Shown piece after piece: positions 13,971 to 64,000 of a DNA stretch of 64,000 nucleotides. The stretch comes from Zychaea mexicana. Lineage: Eukaryota > Mucoromycota > Mucoromycetes > Mucorales > Lichtheimiaceae. The translations under genes were made by a program, and so were the position numbers. Under the pieces are notes generated by a model. That model was not told the DNA's origin, ran no database searches, and worked only from the letters and a program-made list of their open reading frames with translations. Each line of letters begins with the position of its first letter. Position 1 is the first letter of the stretch. The stretch is taken from the NCBI RefSeq assembly GCF_025766255.1, contig NW_026516817.1:27955-91954 (forward strand). The letters are read 5' to 3'.

Positions 13971-14300
13971 ATATATATATACTCATGAAGTTTTATCAGT
14001 TAGAATATTAAACCACAATAGCTAAAGTTGTTACATTTAACAATCCTATACATAAAAGGCTTGCACATCCCCATCAACCTTCCACCTCTATATATCATAA
14101 TCTAGCTATATTTCGTTGACAAGCTCCTCAAGTAGAGGAGGGGTTTACTCACTACTGTTGCGCTGGGTTTAATCATTTTAGCTAATAACATTTATAGTGT
14201 CTAAATAATTTCGATCTAAATTTGAAACTCTTTATCTAAACCAATTAAAATTATAAAATTAAAAAAAGTCTAGAAAATCAAGATTTTCTTATTTTTTTAT

Positions 14301-14484
14301 TTCTTTATAATTCCCTGTTAATATCAATTAATTAAAGTTTTAACAAATTTAAATTTGTTGAACCTTTAGTTATTAATAATTAACTCCCTTATTTCTTTAT
14401 AATTCCCTGTTAATATCAATTAATTAAAGTTTTAACAAATTTAAATTTGTTGAACCTTTAGTTATTAATAATTAACTCCCTTAG
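14301..14484. repeat. Two-copy tandem duplication of 92 bp
   Basis: The segment beginning TTCTTTATAATTCCC at 14301 repeats at 14393, essentially without change, giving two head-to-tail copies in AT-rich DNA. The lack of divergence suggests a recent event. Confidence 0.9.
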
Positions 14485-14489
14485 TAATA

Positions 14490-14935
14490 CAAAATTATTG
14501 GTTGTTCTGAATATATAATATCTTAAATCACTGAGCTCATTGTCGCTGTGAAGGATAGAAAACAATCTTGTTTGTATTAAATGACCAAATTTTAGCTATT
14601 CATTTTATTTTCAAGTAAATCCATATAATTATCATTAAAATCTTCTTACCAAATCCATTTATTATGTGAATTATCATAATCTTTCCATTTAACATAATAT
14701 TTCATTCGTTTTTTAAATTTCCTATGTTCTATAATTCTTTCAACTTCAAAACTATCATCATCTATATAATTATCATTTTCTATATCTATATTATTTATTG
14801 GTAATTCATTGCTATGATTATCATTAAAGTAGTTTCGATTAAATATATCTTGTTGATTAGTCATATCTGTAATTCTTAATATATCAAATTCATATATAAT
14901 GCTATTTATATTATTATTTCGACCAATAAAAAAAA
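14490..14935. repeat. Left arm of a large inverted repeat
   Basis: 14490-14560 is the inverse of about 20277-20340. 14561-14935 is the inverse of about 18270-18650. The two right-hand segments are separated by two inserted elements (18711-19767 and 19769-20276), so the arms were once continuous. Further out, about 13905-13985 is the inverse of about 20405-20480. Confidence 0.8.
14590..14935 (-). pseudogene. Inverted copy of the chromodomain tail of the transposase
   Basis: On the minus strand this encodes the same C-terminus as the transposase at 14970-18613, including FEVERIIEHRKFKKRMKYY and KWKDYD. After the WIW residues a TAA replaces CAA, and several codons are missing before the shared terminal KMNS. 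No DDE core is attached. It forms part of the left arm of the inverted repeat, so the chromodomain-coding region lies in what behaves as a long terminal inverted repeat. Confidence 0.85.
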
Positions 14936-14969: not shown

Positions 14970-17900
14970 TTATAAACAATGAACTTTCAAAAATAAATCA
15001 TAAATACTAGCAATTTTTGGATAACTATAAAGATATCTGAATATAAGTATAGAGAAGAAATAAAAAATATAACAAATATACAGAAAATTAAGCAAGAATT
15101 AGTAGATAAATTAGGATACATTCCCATTTTCTTTTTTCTAATAGTTATTTTTAATAAATATGATTATAAAGGTCTTAACTATAGCAGCATCCCTTTTTCT
15201 ATAACTGCATCCCTTTTTTCTATAGTAGCATCCCTTTTTCTATAGCAGCATCCTTTTTTCTATAGCAGCATCCCTTTTTCTATAGGTGCATCCCTTTTTC
15301 TATAGATGGATAATCAGTAATAGTAAAATATCCAAATAAGTTATATATAGAAAATATTATGTAGTTTATTATTTGAAATAGATATTTTATATATTTATAT
15401 TTATATATTAAAATTGTTGATAAAAAAAAATACTTAGAAAAAAATATTATAATTTATTTATTATTTATCTTCATGTTTAATTTTCTTTTAGATTTAAAAA
15501 ACTAAGTTTTTTGTTTTATAATTTTAATTTTGTTTTGTAGGATAATATTAAATTGGTAAAAAATAAAATACAATATATTAATTAGTGGTGGCAGAATGGT
15601 AATGAGCATATCCCTTCTTTAGGCAAGGAAAACTTGGACGCAGCCTAACTTGACAATGATATTTAGAGATGGAAGGTTGCAGAGGGAGGCAAGCCTTCCA
15701 TGGGTAATTAACATTACCAACGCCTTCCTTTAAATTAGAATTAAAAAAATATATATAAATAACCATTTATTCATCATAGTAGCATCCCTTTTTCTATAGT
15801 AGCATCCCTTTTTCTATAGCAGCATCCCTTTTTCTATAGCAGCATCCCTTTTTCTATAGCAGCATCCCTTTTTCTATAGCAGCATCCCTTTTTCTATAGC
15901 AGCATCCCTTTTTCTATAGCAGCATCCCTTTTTCTATAGCAGCATCCCTTTTTCTATAGGTGCATCCCTTTTTCTATAGGTGCATTCCTTTTTCTATAGC
16001 AGCATCCCTTTTTCTATAGGTGCATCCCTTTTTCTATAGGCGCATCCCTTTTTCTATAGGCGCATCCCTTTTTCTATAGGTGCATCCCTTTTTCTATAGG
16101 TACATCCCTTTTTCTATTATGGCATCCCTTTTTCTATAGGTGCATCCCTTTTTCTATAGCAGCATCCCTTTTTCTATAGGTGCATCCCTTTTTCTATAGC
16201 AGCATCCCTTTTTCTATAGCAGCATCCCTTTTTCTATAGCAGCATCCCTTTTTCTATAGCAGCATCCCTTTTTCTATAGCAGCATCCTTTTTTCTATTAT
16301 GGCATCCCTTTTTCTATTATGGCATCCCTTTTTCTATTATGGCATCCCTTTTTCTATTATGGCATCCCTTTTTCTATAACAGCATCCCTTTTTCTATAGC
16401 AGCATCCCTTTTTCTATAGCAGCATCCCTTTTTCTATAGCAGCATCCTTTTTTCTATTATGGCATCCTTTTTTATATAGCAGCATCCCTTTTTCTATAGC
16501 AGCATCCTTTTTTCTATTATGGCATCCCTTTTTCTATAGGTGCATCCCTTTTTCTATAGCAGCATCCCTTTTTCTATAGCAGCATCCCTTTTTCTATAGC
16601 AGCATCCCTTTTTCTATAGCAGCATCCTTTTTTCTATTATGGCATCCCTTTTTCTATAGGTGCATCCCTTTTTCTATAGCAGCATCCCTTTTTCTATAGC
16701 AGCATCCTTTTTTCTATTATGGCATCCTTTTTTATATAGCAGCATCCCTTTTTCTATAGCAGCATCCCTTTTTCTATAGGTGCATCCCTTTTTCTATAGC
16801 AGCATCCCTTTTTCTATAGCAGCATCCCTTTTTCTATAGCAGCATCCCTTTTTCTATAGCAGCATCCCTTTTTCTATAGCAGCATCCCTTTTTCTATAGC
16901 AGCATCCATTTTTCTATTATGGCATCCCTTTTTCTACTATGGCATCCCTTTTTCTATTATGGCATCCCTTTTTCTATAACAGCATCCCTTTTTCTATAGC
17001 ATCATCCCTTTTTCTATAGCAGCATCCCTTTTTCTATAGCAGCATCCTTTTTTCTATTATGGCATCCCTTTTTCTATAGGTGCATCCCTTTTTCTATAGC
17101 AGCATCCCTTTTTCTATAGCAGCATCCTTTTTTCTATTATGGCATCCTTTTTTATATAGCAGCATCCCTTTTTCTATAGCAGCATCCCTTTTTCTATAGG
17201 TGCATCCCTTTTTCTATAGCAGCATCCCTTTTTCTATAGCAGCATCCCTTTTTCTATAGGTGCATCCCTTTTTCTATAGCAGCATCCCTTTTTCTATAGC
17301 AGCATCCCTTTTTCTATAGCAGCATCCCTTTTTCTATAGGTGCATCCCTTTTTCTAATAACTACATCCCTTTTTCTATAGGTACATCCCTTTTTCTAAGG
17401 TCCATATGTATTTATAGAAAAAGGTTTATGTTTATTATATCATTTAATAACAGGTAAATCTATAAGAGATATGAATGACTTTATTCCTTATACATCATTT
17501 TATGCAATTTATAAAGAATTTTGGGAAAATAATAAGAATGAATTAAATAGAATTATAACTAAATTATTAGAAAATATGTTTTCATCCACTACTTTGAGAA
17601 TAATAAATGCAAAAAAGCTTAATCCTATAGGCTTTAAGAATATGACTTTACTTATAGATGGTCATGATAGTCGTATAGATTTTAACGATAAAGATATAAA
17701 GAAAAGAAATTTTTATTCATATAAATTCAAAAATTCAGGTTTACGAACACAAGTTATATATGATATTAATGAATTTGCAGTTAATGTATCTGATAGTAAA
17801 CTATACAGAAATTATAATGATGGGCAAATGTTTTTAGATATGAAGTTGGAAAATAAATTAAATGAAAATGATTGCATAGCATTTGATGGTGGTTACTACT

Positions 17901-18613
17901 ACTATATTGAAAAATTTATAGAAAATTGTGATAGAAAAAGAAATGATAAAATAAATCTTAATAATTTTATGTTTCCTATTAGAAAAAGTAAAAATATAGA
18001 CTTAAATAATAATGAATTACTATATAATGAAACTTTTGGAAGTTTTAGAAGTAAAATAGAATCATGTTTTAGATTTCTTGGCAATAAATTCAAAGGGTTT
18101 AATAATAATGAAAGTACTATAAAAGCTACAGATTTAAAAATATATAATGTACAATTAAAATTATCACTTCTATTATTAAATATTCAAAAGTTTTGTCAGT
18201 TATATAATATACCTAATAAACCAAATCATCTGTTATGGGTTAATGAAAACTTTGATTATCCTAATCCTAATAGAAATAATAATATAAATAGCATTATATA
18301 TGAATTTGATATATTAAGAATTACAGATATGACTAATCAACAAGATGTATTTATTCGAAACTACTTTAATGATAATCATAGCAATGAATTACCAATAAAT
18401 AATATAGATATAGAAAATGACAATTATACAGATGATGATAGTTTTGAAGTTGAAAGAATTCTAAAACATAGGAAATTTAAAAAACGAATGAAATATTATA
18501 TTAAATGGAAAGATTATGATGATTCACATAATGAATGGATTTGGCAAGATTTTAATGATACAGCAATTATTGATAATTATATAAATTTACTTGAAAATAA
18601 AATGAATAGCTAA
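14970..18613 (+). CDS. DDE_Tnp_4-like transposase with C-terminal chromodomain, copy 1, split by a 2.2-kb minisatellite insertion
   Basis: The main frame (open from 17403, first ATG 17471) encodes a DDE core, then a chromodomain. Counting from that ATG, D63 lies in IDGHDSRI, D139 in FDGGYYYY and E197 in FRSKIESCF. The chromodomain (about 325-372) contains FEVERILKHR and YYIKWKDYDD. The N-terminal part lies about 2.2 kb upstream (about 14985-15174, reading QKIKQELVDKLGYIPIFFFL). It matches copy 2 at 61630 and joins exactly in frame (DYKG|PYVFIEKG) if 15175-17402 is removed or spliced. A TAA lies five codons after the ATG at 14970, so the extreme N-terminus is damaged or starts later. Presumed role: cut-and-paste transposition, with the chromodomain possibly binding methylated histone tails to steer integration. 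The last point is inference. Codon use is very AT-rich, unlike the host genes. Confidence 0.8.
15580..15766 (-). other. Non-repetitive, GC-richer core between the two minisatellite blocks
   Basis: Within the core, about 15580-15730 is clearly less AT-rich than its surroundings and has an open minus-strand frame (about 60 codons, with NYPWKACLPLQPS). On the plus strand TGGCAGAATGGT resembles a Pol III A box, but no good B box follows. It could be a captured gene fragment or a SINE body; neither is established. Confidence 0.3.
15779..17396. repeat. 20-bp minisatellite, about 80 units
   Basis: Units of CATCCCTTTTTCTATAGCAG (20 bp) repeat with almost perfect period. Variants fall in the edge triplet (AGC, GGT, GGC, TATG) and in CCC/CCT. 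A composite block with CTATTAT followed by TTTTATATAGC recurs at about 16441, 16701 and 17121 (spacing 13 and 21 units), showing higher-order amplification. No protein frame runs through it. Confidence 0.97.
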
Positions 18614-60112: not shown

Positions 60113-61629
60113 ATGGCAGGAAACATCGCAACAACTTTAACAAAGAGTAAGTAGTGTTAATAAATTACACATCCACATTCTACTGACGAGAACCATAATA
60201 AAATAACTTATGTATAGAATTCATCGAGTATTTTGACCAGGAGACCGAAGCTCCAAGTCTTGCCCATTTTTATTGTTATGACAATGAAGCCTTCATAAAA
60301 GGTACCCCCAACACTGAATACAAGGCAACCTGGTCAAATCGGTTTAAAAAAGCAGTCCAAGAAAGAAATATTGTGGTAAACAACACAGCTTCTATAATAA
60401 TAATCGTGACATGAAAAAGATCGACAAGTTACTTTATTGAAATAGGATTATAGACAAGACAAACCTAACTGGGAAGAAATACAACAGGTTGGTTACATTA
60501 GAATTAACTGTAACATCTGGTATCCAGCTCTAATTATATCGACCTTAACCAACTATTGGATTAGGAACTTGAAAACAACCTTGAAAACAAGCCAACACCA
60601 AAAACCAGTCCAAAATCCAGATCCCCAACTTTAAAAACTAAACTCATGGCAGACGAAAAAACGAAACTTAAAGCCATTTTCGAAGATCTAGATCCAAAAA
60701 ACTTTTGGTATCTAAAATCAACAATTTCTGAACCAAATCAAAAAGCCAAGTCTGTGGAAGAGCGTATGATAAAATTTGCTCTTAATTGTAATTACTATCA
60801 GTAAGATGTAGTTTGATTTTATATATTGATTATGGTAGTGCTATGTACATAAATTCATTTGTTATTTCTTTGACTTTTGGTAGTCCAAGTCAACAACTTA
60901 TACTCGATCTTACTGATTCCAACTGGGACGACATATTCACCAAGGCAGAAAGAAAAGAAATCGAAGATGCTGGATGCAAACTATTAAGACCAGTGGATGT
61001 GTCATTGACTCGACTACTAGGTGAATTATATAAAAAGGTAAATAGAACAAAAAGATGGGTTATAAACTTCAAGGCTATTTCCCTTATAATTTTCCTCAAT
61101 ACCTTCATATCATAGAAAACAGCAAAAGAAGCATTTAATTTTGCACGTACAATCGAACTTGATCCTGAAGATGAGCCTATTCTCGCATGGTTATCGACAT
61201 CCATCTAAAACACTGCTCTTCTTTATCTCAAGAAAAATAATTTCAAAATCCAAAATTAACTCGAATCGGATAAGATGTATTATCTCTGGAGTTTCTTAAA
61301 TAAGATTTATGATGCATCGGACGACTTTGTTGCCCTTGGGTAAGTAATAGCACTATATTTTTCATGTATAAGTTCCATATTTATCTATCATGTAAAGCTT
61401 ACGAAATCAATGTGTTGGATTATGGTGTTGTAGGAAGCAGGATGTGCAGTACCAAATTGGCTATAAATTTACAATAGTTTTCGATAAATCTAATAAATTG
61501 CTTGCTGCCATATTAAATTATATCATCTATTTTGATATTTTATCAATTTTATGACATCATGTGACCAAAATCATGCATTCAATGATTATAAAAATTAAAA
61601 AATCCATAATATAATAAAAGAACGACCTA

Positions 61630-63150
61630 ATGGATACAACAAACTATACACTACTGATTACAAATGAAGTAAACTCAATTATTGCAAATTATTGGCAATT
61701 CCTAGAATGGAATTGGCCTACTGTACATAATAAATATAAACATAGAACTGATTTGAGACATATTAAATTCATAGATAAAATTAAGGATGAATTGTTACGT
61801 AAATTAGGTTATATTGCTGTATTTTATTTTCTAGTATTTTTATATACAAACAAGGAATATCCCAGACCTTACTTTGAAATTGAAAAAGGATTGTTTTTAT
61901 TATATCATTTAGTCTCTGGAGTATGTGGTGAAAAATTCGAAAAATACTTACCACATAGCACATTTCATACATTTTATAAAAAGTTTTGGATGGATGAGGA
62001 CAACTACAAACGAATCAACAAAATAGTAAATGATTCAATGAATAACATGTTTTCATCTAACAAATTACGTATTCTATCTGCTAGAAAGCATAATCCCGAC
62101 TTATTTAAACATGTAACACTTGTATTGGATGGCCATGATTCAAGAATTAACTATGTAGATACTGAAATTGACCACTTTCAAAGAATGTATTCTTATAAAT
62201 TTAAGAAGAATGGAATACGTACCCAATTTATTAGTGATATGAATGATATGATTATTTATACTTCTAAAAGTGACTTTTGTTCTGATAGCTCAGATGGTAG
62301 CATGTTTTTAAATATGAAATTATTTAAATATATGCATGAGAATGACATAATGGCAGTTGATGGTGGATATACTTTATTTATCACGCAATTTACAGAGCTT
62401 GCTAATGAAAAAGGATATAACTTTAGCCATGATAATTTTGTATACCCTATACGTAAAAATGTAAATGAGCCCTTAACAATTACTGAAGATCATTTTAATA
62501 AGACATTTGGAAGTTTTAGGACAAAAGTTGAGAATCAATTTTCAGAAATTGGGAATAAATTCTGCCGATTCAATAATAACAAGTCAGTTGTTAAAATGGA
62601 TAACATAAAATACTATAATCTGCAATTTTGTGTAGCTTGTTTATTAAAAAATACTACAAAATTTGTAGTAATGTTCAATATTCCTATTTTACCACACCAT
62701 AAACTATGGCACAGTAATGATTTCGATTTTCCAGTAGAGCATAAACTAATTGATATAGTGGTTAGCAATGATAAACAAAATAAAGATAAACTAGATAAAA
62801 TGATCAGATTACAAAATGACCTGCTTAATATGGCTATATCAAATGAAGAAATGATTGTTGATAATGAATCTGATAATAATTCAAATTAGAGTAATAGTGA
62901 TAATGATGATGTTCCAAGATTTAATGAGCGTAGTAAAAAAAGAAAGCGAAATAAAGGGAAACAACAAGCAATGGCATCATATGAAATAGAAGAGATTATT
63001 AGGTATAAAACTGAAAATGGTACATATTTATTTGAAGTAAAATGGGTTGGATATAGTGCTGATGATAACAGTTGGTTATCAATTGATAAATTTAATCAAA
63101 AGGGTTTATTGAAGGAATATATCAATAAGCATAATCTTGGTATATTATAA
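61630..63150 (+). pseudogene. DDE_Tnp_4-like transposase with C-terminal chromodomain, copy 2, one in-frame TAG
   Basis: The frame starts MDTTNYTLLITNEVN and is open for 419 residues to TAG at 62887-62889. It then continues in the same frame to TAA at 63148-63150. Catalytic candidates are D167 (LDGHDSRI), D244 (VDGGYTLF) and E301 (RTKVENQF), all intact and with nearly the same spacing as copy 1. An acidic Asn/Ser linker follows and contains the TAG, then a basic patch (SKKRKRNKGK). The chromodomain (about 62977-63135) reads SYEIEEIIRYK, FEVKWVGYSADDNSWLS, with Tyr, Trp and Trp at the expected aromatic-cage positions. Similarity to copy 1 is obvious throughout but moderate, so the fusion is old rather than a chance join. 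The TAG makes full-length protein unlikely without readthrough. Confidence 0.85.
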
Positions 63151-63608
63151 AATTGCATACTCTAGGTAATATTCAATATATTCTTTTTCATTAAATATCT
63201 TTTTAATTATATTCATAAATAAAATTGGATCCACTATTTTAAATAAATTCTTATAATGATTAAATTTAATTAGCTTATATGCAATATATATAGGATCATA
63301 TATGATATTTCTAATTTTTGACTTGTAAATTTTAATATGCTTCTTTACAATATAATGCTCACCATCATAAATTTTATTACTTTTATGTACTAAATACTTT
63401 TTTGATGAACATATTCTAATAATAAATATTTTGCTATAAATTCAGTAATACTTACAATATTTTCTTCAACTGGTATATAACATAATGTGGATAAATACTT
63501 TGAATTCATACCTAGCATTCCTTTTTTACCAATTATTTTTATATATACACAAAATTCAATTTTTTGTACAATTTGGATTTTTACAGCCAATAGATTTCTT
63601 ACAGCCAA
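63145..63608 (-). pseudogene. Unknown second ORF of the chromodomain-DDE transposon, frameshifted
   Basis: Minus-strand coding blocks read GKKGMLGMNSKYLSTLCYIP and TEFIAKYLLLEYVHQK. After a one-base shift near 63390 they continue IYDGEHYIVKKHIKIYKSKI and KIFNEKEYIEYYLEYAIL to a stop at 63145-63147. Just upstream another frame reads IGCKKSIGCKNPNC, so a Cys-rich start may have been lost through a second shift. Total length would be about 150 residues. It is not recognised and not visibly similar to the ORF at 18956. Position suggests an accessory protein of the transposon. Confidence 0.5.
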
Positions 63609-64000
63609 TAGTATTATCTAATATCTAATTGGAGTTGGATGTCCCTAGAAGGAGAAACACAGTACTGCAAGTGCATCAGCAACAAACCAAAAACGAAAAT
63701 TGTCGGCAGTAGACCCCGTGGAAAATTTAAAAATGGGAAGAAGAACTGATACAACCTATATTGGAGGAAACGGTGTTGAACTAGGTTGCTTGGAAATTGG
63801 TAGAACAAACGATCAAACTAAGAGTTTATCGATGGTTCAATTAAGATGCCTATGGTAATGAGAGACATGCTGTTGAAATTGGTCGAGAAACCCAGCTCTT
63901 GTCAATCAACTTCATATTTTAGGATATCTCATCATGGGTAAGTTACGATTAATAAATGCTATTTTTTGGTATGATATTAACTACATGTCCCTCTGTACTA

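Follow-up and report, generated by a model that had tools for sequence, protein, structure and literature searches.

A chromodomain joined to the DDE_Tnp_4-type transposase of a PHIS-like transposon family in Zychaea mexicana

Two broken copies of a chromodomain transposase

The 64,000-nucleotide stretch of Zychaea mexicana DNA analysed here (contig NW_026516817.1, positions 27,955 to 91,954 of the forward strand; hereafter the window) is the end of the contig that we call C62, and carries two copies of a gene in which a transposase of the DDE_Tnp_4 type is followed by a chromodomain (Table 1). A preliminary description of this DNA had proposed that the two domains were fused in one reading frame before the copies diverged, that the copies represent a transposon family, and that the family may target heterochromatin. 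We find that they belong to a family of DNA transposons of the PHIS kind with open copies elsewhere in the genome, and that the fusion appears undescribed within the literature searched.

Neither window copy is intact. The catalytic residues are spaced as first reported, 77 and 57 apart in copy 2 and 76 and 58 apart in copy 1 (counted as differences between positions), and the aromatic-cage residues of the chromodomain are Y/W/Y in copy 2 and F/W/Y in copy 1. The copies have the same domain order and share 45% identity over 290 aligned residues, again as described. The claim of a single frame needs qualification: in each copy the two domains do lie in the same frame, but in copy 2 a TAG separates the transposase from the chromodomain frame (62890-63147), and in copy 1 the span 14970-18613 is split by an insert of about 2.2 kb, so that the uninterrupted frame begins at 17399 rather than 14970. 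Pfam recovers the chromodomain above its cut-off (25.1 bits) in both copies (copy 2, 34.4 bits, E 2.1e-8; copy 1, 37.8 bits, E 1.8e-9, over 33 of 53 profile positions). The transposase domain is above its cut-off (24.8 bits) in copy 2 (31.6 bits, E 1.5e-7, window 62167-62649) and below it in copy 1 (22.1 bits, E 1.3e-4).

Table 1. Features of the two transposase copies in the window
Feature	Position	Strand	Basis or remark
Inverted copy-1-like fragment: linker and chromodomain	~14595..14921	-	85% identical to copy 1
Copy 1, N-terminal transposase part, upstream of insert	15009..15173	+	tblastn to open copies
Insert in copy 1, ~2.2 kb, mostly 20-bp tandem repeats	15175..17396		TRF and sequence
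Copy 1, DDE core and chromodomain, one open frame, 404 aa	17399..18613	+	Frame; Chromo match 18443-18538
Copy 2, 5' end, ~190 bp element leader	61436..61629	+	Left boundary 61436-61440
Copy 2, DDE_Tnp_4-type transposase frame, D-77-D-57-E	61630..62886	+	Frame, Pfam match, spacing
Copy 2, in-frame TAG between transposase and chromodomain	62887..62889	+	Open here in L046, L026, L047, L049, L054 (506-517 aa)
Copy 2, chromodomain	62980..63126	+	PF00385, residues 31-79 of 62890-63147; stop 63148-63150
ORF3 remains (third, convergent small gene of copy 2's subfamily), two frames	63172..63518	-	tblastn, 82-83% identity to L039 ORF3

A large family with open copies and relatives elsewhere

The genome searched (50.3 Mb in 305 contigs) holds two main subfamilies, A and B. 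The A-type transposase gave at least 101 matches (99 of 697 candidates scored) and the B-type at least 92 (87 of 825 scored); after 12 rows of A copies in the B search and 11 second pieces were removed and neighbours merged, at least 166 chromodomain-transposase places remained. In eight copies (L046, L026, L047, L049, L054, L056, L057 and L058) an open frame of 494-517 aa covers both domains. Another subfamily, whose transposase shares 54-60% identity with that of B, lies at C113, C76, C261, C267, C20, C54, C303:57050 and C35:396347, with no convergent Rep match (see below) within 6 kb.

Outside the window the fusion recurs in other sources, including named Mucorales. Transposase relatives numbered 149, of which 120 were listed, from metagenomes and from fungi that include Circinella minor, Lichtheimia corymbifera, Zychaea mexicana, Mucor hiemalis and Phascolomyces articulosus. 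A chromodomain is present in 56 of the 120 listed relatives (phmmer) and absent from 24 others of at least 420 aa, the remainder being shorter. A hand-picked transposase alignment of 46 rows (7 from this genome and 39 of the 120 listed relatives) matched DDE_Tnp_4 (PF13359) throughout at E <= 0.001 and Chromo in 41 rows, with five lacking it, a share that is a product of row choice since rows were selected to include the domain.

In a tree of 86 rows (58 with the chromodomain and 28 without, own_W_dde, which has a stop, and own_L052, which has a frameshift, being labelled as with) the chromodomain is found on early branches, as placed by a midpoint root; the two outgroup rows come from this genome and are very distant. 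The presence or absence label needs eight changes, six of them forced by well-supported branches. The fusion thus looks old, in keeping with the claim that it is ancestral, and we infer that an early gain of the chromodomain followed by repeated losses fits this tree best.

An HP1-type chromodomain maintained by selection

The chromodomain columns of the alignment, used as a profile against solved structures, match HP1-type structures (8uxq, E 1.2e-14; 1kna, E 1.0e-11), and judged by these matches the domain is closest to HP1 among solved structures. At the three cage positions, which we assign by HP1 cage numbering, all residues are aromatic in 39 of the 41 chromodomain rows, the exceptions being P0082 (H at the first) and P0113 (a gap at the third); these rows thus combine a Pfam Chromo match with the aromatic cage of an HP1-type chromodomain.

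The ratio of nonsynonymous to synonymous substitution rates (dN/dS) was estimated among the eight open copies, as 25 diverged pairs and three near-identical B pairs. In the diverged pairs it is 0.13-0.48 for the chromodomain, 0.12-0.41 for the DDE domain and 0.17-2.7 for the linker, rough values because many dS values exceed 1. The low chromodomain values indicate that the domain is kept by purifying selection over the long term.

Element ends and target-site duplications

Comparison of copies gives sharp element ends with short and imperfect terminal inverted repeats. Fifteen A-type loci were compared, among which no 3' end was found in L010, L020, L023, L031, L034 and L035 and no 5' end in L037; among nine B-type copies compared at both ends, C292 and C271 lacked the transposase-side terminus, and C305 and C174 contributed one end only. 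A-type elements begin with GTGGG (5/8), GTAGG (2/8) or ATGGG (1/8), finish in the reverse complement of GGCGC, AGCGC, GGTGC, GCCGC or GCTGC, and measure 2,291-2,365 bp when bounded. The transposase-side end of B-type elements is GGCGTCC (GGTGTCC in C57) and the opposite end GGGGACC (GGGGACT in C19), with a length of 4,031-4,071 bp in six of seven copies and 4,519 bp in C12.

The 3 bp flanking the two ends match in 14 of 16 copies (A 8/8, B 6/8). The A duplications read ATA, ATT, ATA, ATT, AAT, ATT, ATT and AAA, and those of B GAG, CAT, AAT, ATT, ATG and CTT. Flanks paired across different copies match in 15 of 112 comparisons, a control inflated by the many A sites that are ATT. A 2-bp duplication was considered and rejected: shifting the 3' boundary by one base yields 3-bp matches in all eight A copies. 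Spy elements make no target duplication, and a Spy-like insertion is ruled out by the same 14 of 16 matches. The preliminary description's mobile DNA-transposon family is upheld by this result: on the evidence of their flanks, the copies are bounded mobile transposons that make 3-bp target-site duplications.

Partner genes of the A-type elements

A second open reading frame (ORF2), convergent to the transposase, encodes about 145-176 aa with a C-x13-C-x16/17-C-C-x-H stretch (e.g. in L046 and L026). Of the 68 A copies in which the 3' end of the transposase is preserved, at least 39 have it within 1.5 kb, 38 of these at 287-542 bp; ORF2 counts are lower bounds, 150 of 302 candidates having been scored in the genome search. 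Seven ORF2 homologues were found. Some A-type copies, window copy 2 among them, carry or once carried a third convergent small gene, ORF3, with 30 matches in the genome (e.g. L039:4254-4691 and L040:4787-5146), and its remains beside copy 2 are the only partner gene found in the window. Pfam gave no match above cut-off for ORF2, ORF3 or the 188-aa B-type partner in L056 described below. Beside one A-type element an open frame of 153 aa on the reverse strand (L040:5226-5687) has a glycine/alanine-rich, membrane-like segment and no Pfam match above cut-off.

A geminivirus-like Rep in the B-type elements

The Rep-bearing branch of the family is not visible from the window. The transposase 3' end is preserved in 42 B copies. 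A convergent Rep match lies 709-751 bp away in 22 of these and 1.5-4.1 kb away in five, and the other 15 have none within 6 kb; the fixed distance of 709-751 bp is seen with subfamily B only. The target-site duplication brackets both genes in six of seven two-gene B copies, and the pair therefore moves as one unit.

The protein is about 700 aa long, with an HUH nuclease and a superfamily 3 (SF3) helicase between long N- and C-terminal extensions; the frame at L059:885-2996 reads 703 aa from the ATG at 885 and 764 aa from a TTG. There are 93 Rep matches in the genome; five are free of stops and lie in frames of 710-772 aa, and many others contain stops. Against solved structures the protein matched 9pqf (phmmer, E 1.1e-5), and a profile of 11 rows matched 9pqf at 1.6e-9 and 1l2m, which we take to be a geminivirus Rep, at 4.3e-8. 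Gemini_AL1 was found in eight of the 11 rows (best E 2.3e-8), L059 alone scoring 17.0 bits, under the cut-off of 24 bits. The first His of the HUH motifs is present in 10 of 10 rows, the second in 9 of 10, and the Tyr and Lys in 10 of 10 each, with Walker A and motif C in 11 of 11; the Rep thus has the HUH motifs and the SF3 Walker A and motif C of the CRESS (circular Rep-encoding single-stranded DNA) type. In three pairs of pieces (234-292 codons, the N-terminal HUH part not included) dN/dS is 0.07-0.10 at dS 0.18-0.49. Judged by profile matches and substitution ratios, the B-type partner is a geminivirus-like Rep under strong purifying selection.

Ten Rep relatives were found elsewhere, one of them from Rhizopus stolonifer. 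For one of these relatives (P0122) and for a transposase without chromodomain in the same tree clade as B (P0056) the longest contig is in each case 4,459 bp, which suggests that the two lie on one contig, and the pairing of Rep and transposase may be older than the Zychaea genome. Scans of IMG/VR with the transposase and with the Rep gave no relatives, and the pieces scanned had no capsid match. We also considered a CRESS-type origin at the element ends and rejected it: the origin nonanucleotide NANTATTAC is found in none of 14 terminal B stretches (L060-L067 and L072-L077), and the inverted repeats at the ends of L058 and L057 are AT-rich. Inside or outside the elements of L056-L059 there are seven matches to the nonanucleotide, given here as a raw count.

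One B-type element has a different partner, a frame of 188 aa (L056:2072-2638) without the HUH and helicase domains, in which an N-terminal stretch and a C-terminal YNWASKRKV..SFNMRFF are by eye shared with Rep; it is possibly a small Rep-derived protein.

Comparison with known transposons

The PHIS superfamily is divided into PIF/Harbinger, ISL2EU, Spy, Pangu, NuwaI and NuwaII, told apart by target duplication and partner gene: PIF/Harbinger has TWA and a Myb/SANT protein, ISL2EU has AT and YqaJ, Spy has no second gene, and Pangu, NuwaI and NuwaII duplicate ANT, CWG and TNA, respectively (Han et al. 2015, PMC4482050); duplications in PHIS elements are elsewhere given as 0, 2 or 3 bp (PMC12730594). 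The Zychaea family resembles these groups, as they are described there, in its type of DDE transposase (the DDE_Tnp_4 match covers the catalytic region in all 46 alignment rows, window copy 1 taken alone being below cut-off), its short inverted repeats, its usual second gene and a duplication within the 0-3 bp range. It differs in the chromodomain fused to the transposase and in a partner that is a Cys/His-rich protein or a Rep rather than Myb/SANT or YqaJ. None of the 14 duplications fits the TWA of PIF/Harbinger, and Pfam found no Myb/SANT domain in ORF2 of L046 or in the B partner pieces. The duplications are of 3 bp and not the 2-bp AT of ISL2EU, and the scanned frames matched neither THAP nor YqaJ; Spy has neither the duplications seen here in 14 of 16 copies nor second genes; and of the 14 sites seven fit ANT, none CWG and none TNA. 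By its duplications and partner genes, then, the family fits no PHIS group, a comparison made with the groups as described, our trees containing relatives and two outgroups from the same genome.

Some PHIS elements carry chromatin-related genes, namely PHISTA with a TET/JBP dioxygenase (PMC12730594) and HarbingerS with a SET methyltransferase (known from a reference title in PMC12730594), and in this they are like the Zychaea family. In PHISTA, however, the gene encodes a separate chromatin enzyme and the duplications are TA, whereas here a reader domain lies within the transposase and the duplications are of 3 bp.

The preliminary description knew chromodomains as a feature of chromovirus integrases, which is correct and incomplete, since Maverick/Polinton integrases carry them as well (PMC10799480). 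Both chromoviruses (Ty3) and Maverick/Polinton share with the Zychaea elements a DDE-type recombinase followed by a C-terminal chromodomain. The Zychaea elements differ in being 2.3-4.5 kb long with two or three small genes and a DDE domain of another family. The frames scanned had no match to reverse transcriptase, integrase zinc finger or DNA polymerase, and the bounded lengths (A 2.29-2.37 kb, B 4.03-4.52 kb) are not those of a chromovirus, in which reverse transcriptase, integrase and long terminal repeats surround the chromodomain. As the preliminary description had supposed, the literature searched gave no account of a DNA-transposon, Harbinger-like or DDE_Tnp_4 transposase bearing a chromodomain; that literature does not cover Repbase, preprints and most subscription journals, where an entry may exist.

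The nearest counterpart of the B-type elements is the geminivirus-like transposon described from the truffle Tuber melanosporum (Liu et al. 2011, PMC3198968). Its Rep is interrupted and its two transposases are broken or truncated; the inverted repeats measure 37 bp, and duplications are not obvious. Both have a geminivirus-like Rep and transposase genes inside inverted repeats, in many copies in a fungal host. Set against that description, the B-type elements differ in having some open Reps, 3-bp duplications across the whole unit and a DDE_Tnp_4-chromodomain transposase. Within the same literature no other transposon combining Rep and transposase was found. The likeness to the Reps of CRESS DNA viruses and plasmids lies in the HUH and SF3 motifs and in the Gemini_AL1 matches; the Zychaea Rep differs in its size and long extensions, with neither a capsid gene nor a terminal origin nonanucleotide in the scanned pieces.

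A proposed mechanism and its alternatives

It is likely, in our judgement, that the window contains two decayed members of a large PHIS-type family with the following division of labour. The DDE domain would cut and join the element ends, the chromodomain would tether the transposase complex to methylated histone H3 and bias where copies land, and ORF2 or Rep would perform an accessory step. Rep would most probably nick and unwind the element, or copy it; Rep is not needed for cut-and-paste as such, because A-type elements move without it. The family shows a domain of the chromatin-reader kind as an integral part of a classical cut-and-paste transposase, retained throughout a deep family with open copies, so that the possible steering of a DNA transposon by a reader domain is directly testable. 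The Rep branch, in which Rep is open, selected and inside a duplication-flanked unit, offers a better-preserved case than the broken truffle element for the idea that single-stranded DNA replicons and DNA transposons merge.

Several observations weigh against this reading. The 3-bp match is absent in two copies (C262 and the first element of L056). The chromodomain is missing from several lineages, those 24 listed relatives of at least 420 aa among them, and is therefore not indispensable; many of the dS values behind its selection estimate exceed 1, and in the three near-identical B pairs the DDE dN/dS is 0.50-1.67 on few changes, which is little informative. Against replication by Rep, the 14 terminal stretches lack the nonanucleotide. 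Rolling-circle concatemers were also sought and rejected: 71 of the 92 transposase and 50 of the 93 Rep matches were compared (pieces and A copies excluded), and no two starts on one strand are separated by 4.0-4.1 kb; the nearest same-strand spacings are 3.65 kb for transposases (C303) and 3.79 kb (C57) and 3.28 kb (C35) for Reps. Lastly, the expected heterochromatin targeting did not show in the neighbourhood of Ty3 integrases: one lies within 20 kb of 41 of 166 listed chromodomain-transposase places and of 16 of 74 listed places of other DDE_Tnp_4 elements (Fisher p 0.74), with no difference among the same places at 10 kb (17 against 9) or 30 kb (46 against 19). This is a weak test because the vicinity of Ty3 only stands in for heterochromatin. 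The 74 comparison places derive from 75 hand-entered rows, chosen after those judged to be A copies, B copies or second pieces had been set aside; one of the 75 (C122) lies within 2 kb of a Chromo match in a list for which 150 of 429 candidates were scored. Clustering was rejected as proof of targeting: 76 of the 166 listed places have another no more than 20 kb away, where a uniform spread would give about 12%, and other DDE_Tnp_4 elements behave likewise (23 of 74, where it would give about 6%), on contigs that are uneven. Targeting of heterochromatin by the chromodomain is therefore plausible but unproven.

These results leave some room for a chromodomain that acts in protein stability, nuclear retention or self-limitation through recruitment of heterochromatin proteins, and not in the choice of target, a possibility that we regard as somewhat doubtful. 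It would account for the Ty3 result and for the lineages without the domain. The conserved cage, aromatic in 39 of 41 rows, points instead to ligand binding, and chromodomains carried by other integrases steer where integration occurs (Gao et al. 2008, as cited in PMC10799480); both speak against this alternative.

Three further readings concern Rep. The B-type elements could be replicating hybrids, in which the chromodomain transposase excises the element, Rep amplifies it as geminivirus-like circles and the same transposase reinserts these into methylated-histone chromatin. We consider this unlikely; if true, a DNA transposon would replicate for a time as an episome and be guided by chromatin when it reintegrates. 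They might alternatively have begun as geminivirus-like episomes, derived from a virus or plasmid, that integrated with a captured transposase as their integrase. The open Rep frame with its HUH and SF3 motifs and strong purifying selection would suit such an origin. In ambisense CRESS genomes genes diverge from a common intergenic region, and with the ends of a B-type element joined in a circle its genes would do the same. An origin of this kind is nevertheless improbable given that capsid, terminal nonanucleotide and IMG/VR relatives were all missing from what was scanned, and that the transposase is one of a larger family in which many A-type elements have ORF2 instead. Equally, Rep could be a passenger, descended from a single insertion of a virus gene into one transposon and simply taken along, as its fixed distance with subfamily B only and the stops in many of its matches might suggest; selection at dN/dS 0.07-0.10, the related Reps in other sources and the contig that P0122 may share with P0056 make this a poor prospect. 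A chance joining of the domains in decayed copies, or an assembly error, could be imagined from the two broken window copies and is excluded for practical purposes by the open copies in the genome and by relatives with both domains from independent sources.

Surroundings of the window copies

The insert in copy 1 contains tandem repeats at 15179-15305 and 15776-17397, in which a 20-bp minisatellite unit occurs about 87 times (TRF), and AAGGTC stands on either side of it (15169-15174 and 17397-17402), as if the whole had been inserted into the transposase gene in one piece. That the array is part of the transposon is ruled out, as the 6-bp repeat flanks it and the open copies are without it.

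Similarity of copy 2 to other copies begins at window 61436-61440 (positions 1319-1323 of locus L009, which covers window 60309-64000), where it reads GCAGGATGTGCAGTACC and other copies have GTGGGATGTGCA. Its 3' end and target duplication cannot be fixed because the nearest copy, L022 (C234:380419-384492), duplicates the whole region: L009 and L022 are 99.7% identical over 3.7 kb that include copy 2. Both lie near contig ends, and from this similarity the pair may be a recent duplication, perhaps subtelomeric. Beside the inverted fragment near copy 1, a 92-bp unit is duplicated perfectly in tandem (window 14297-14483).

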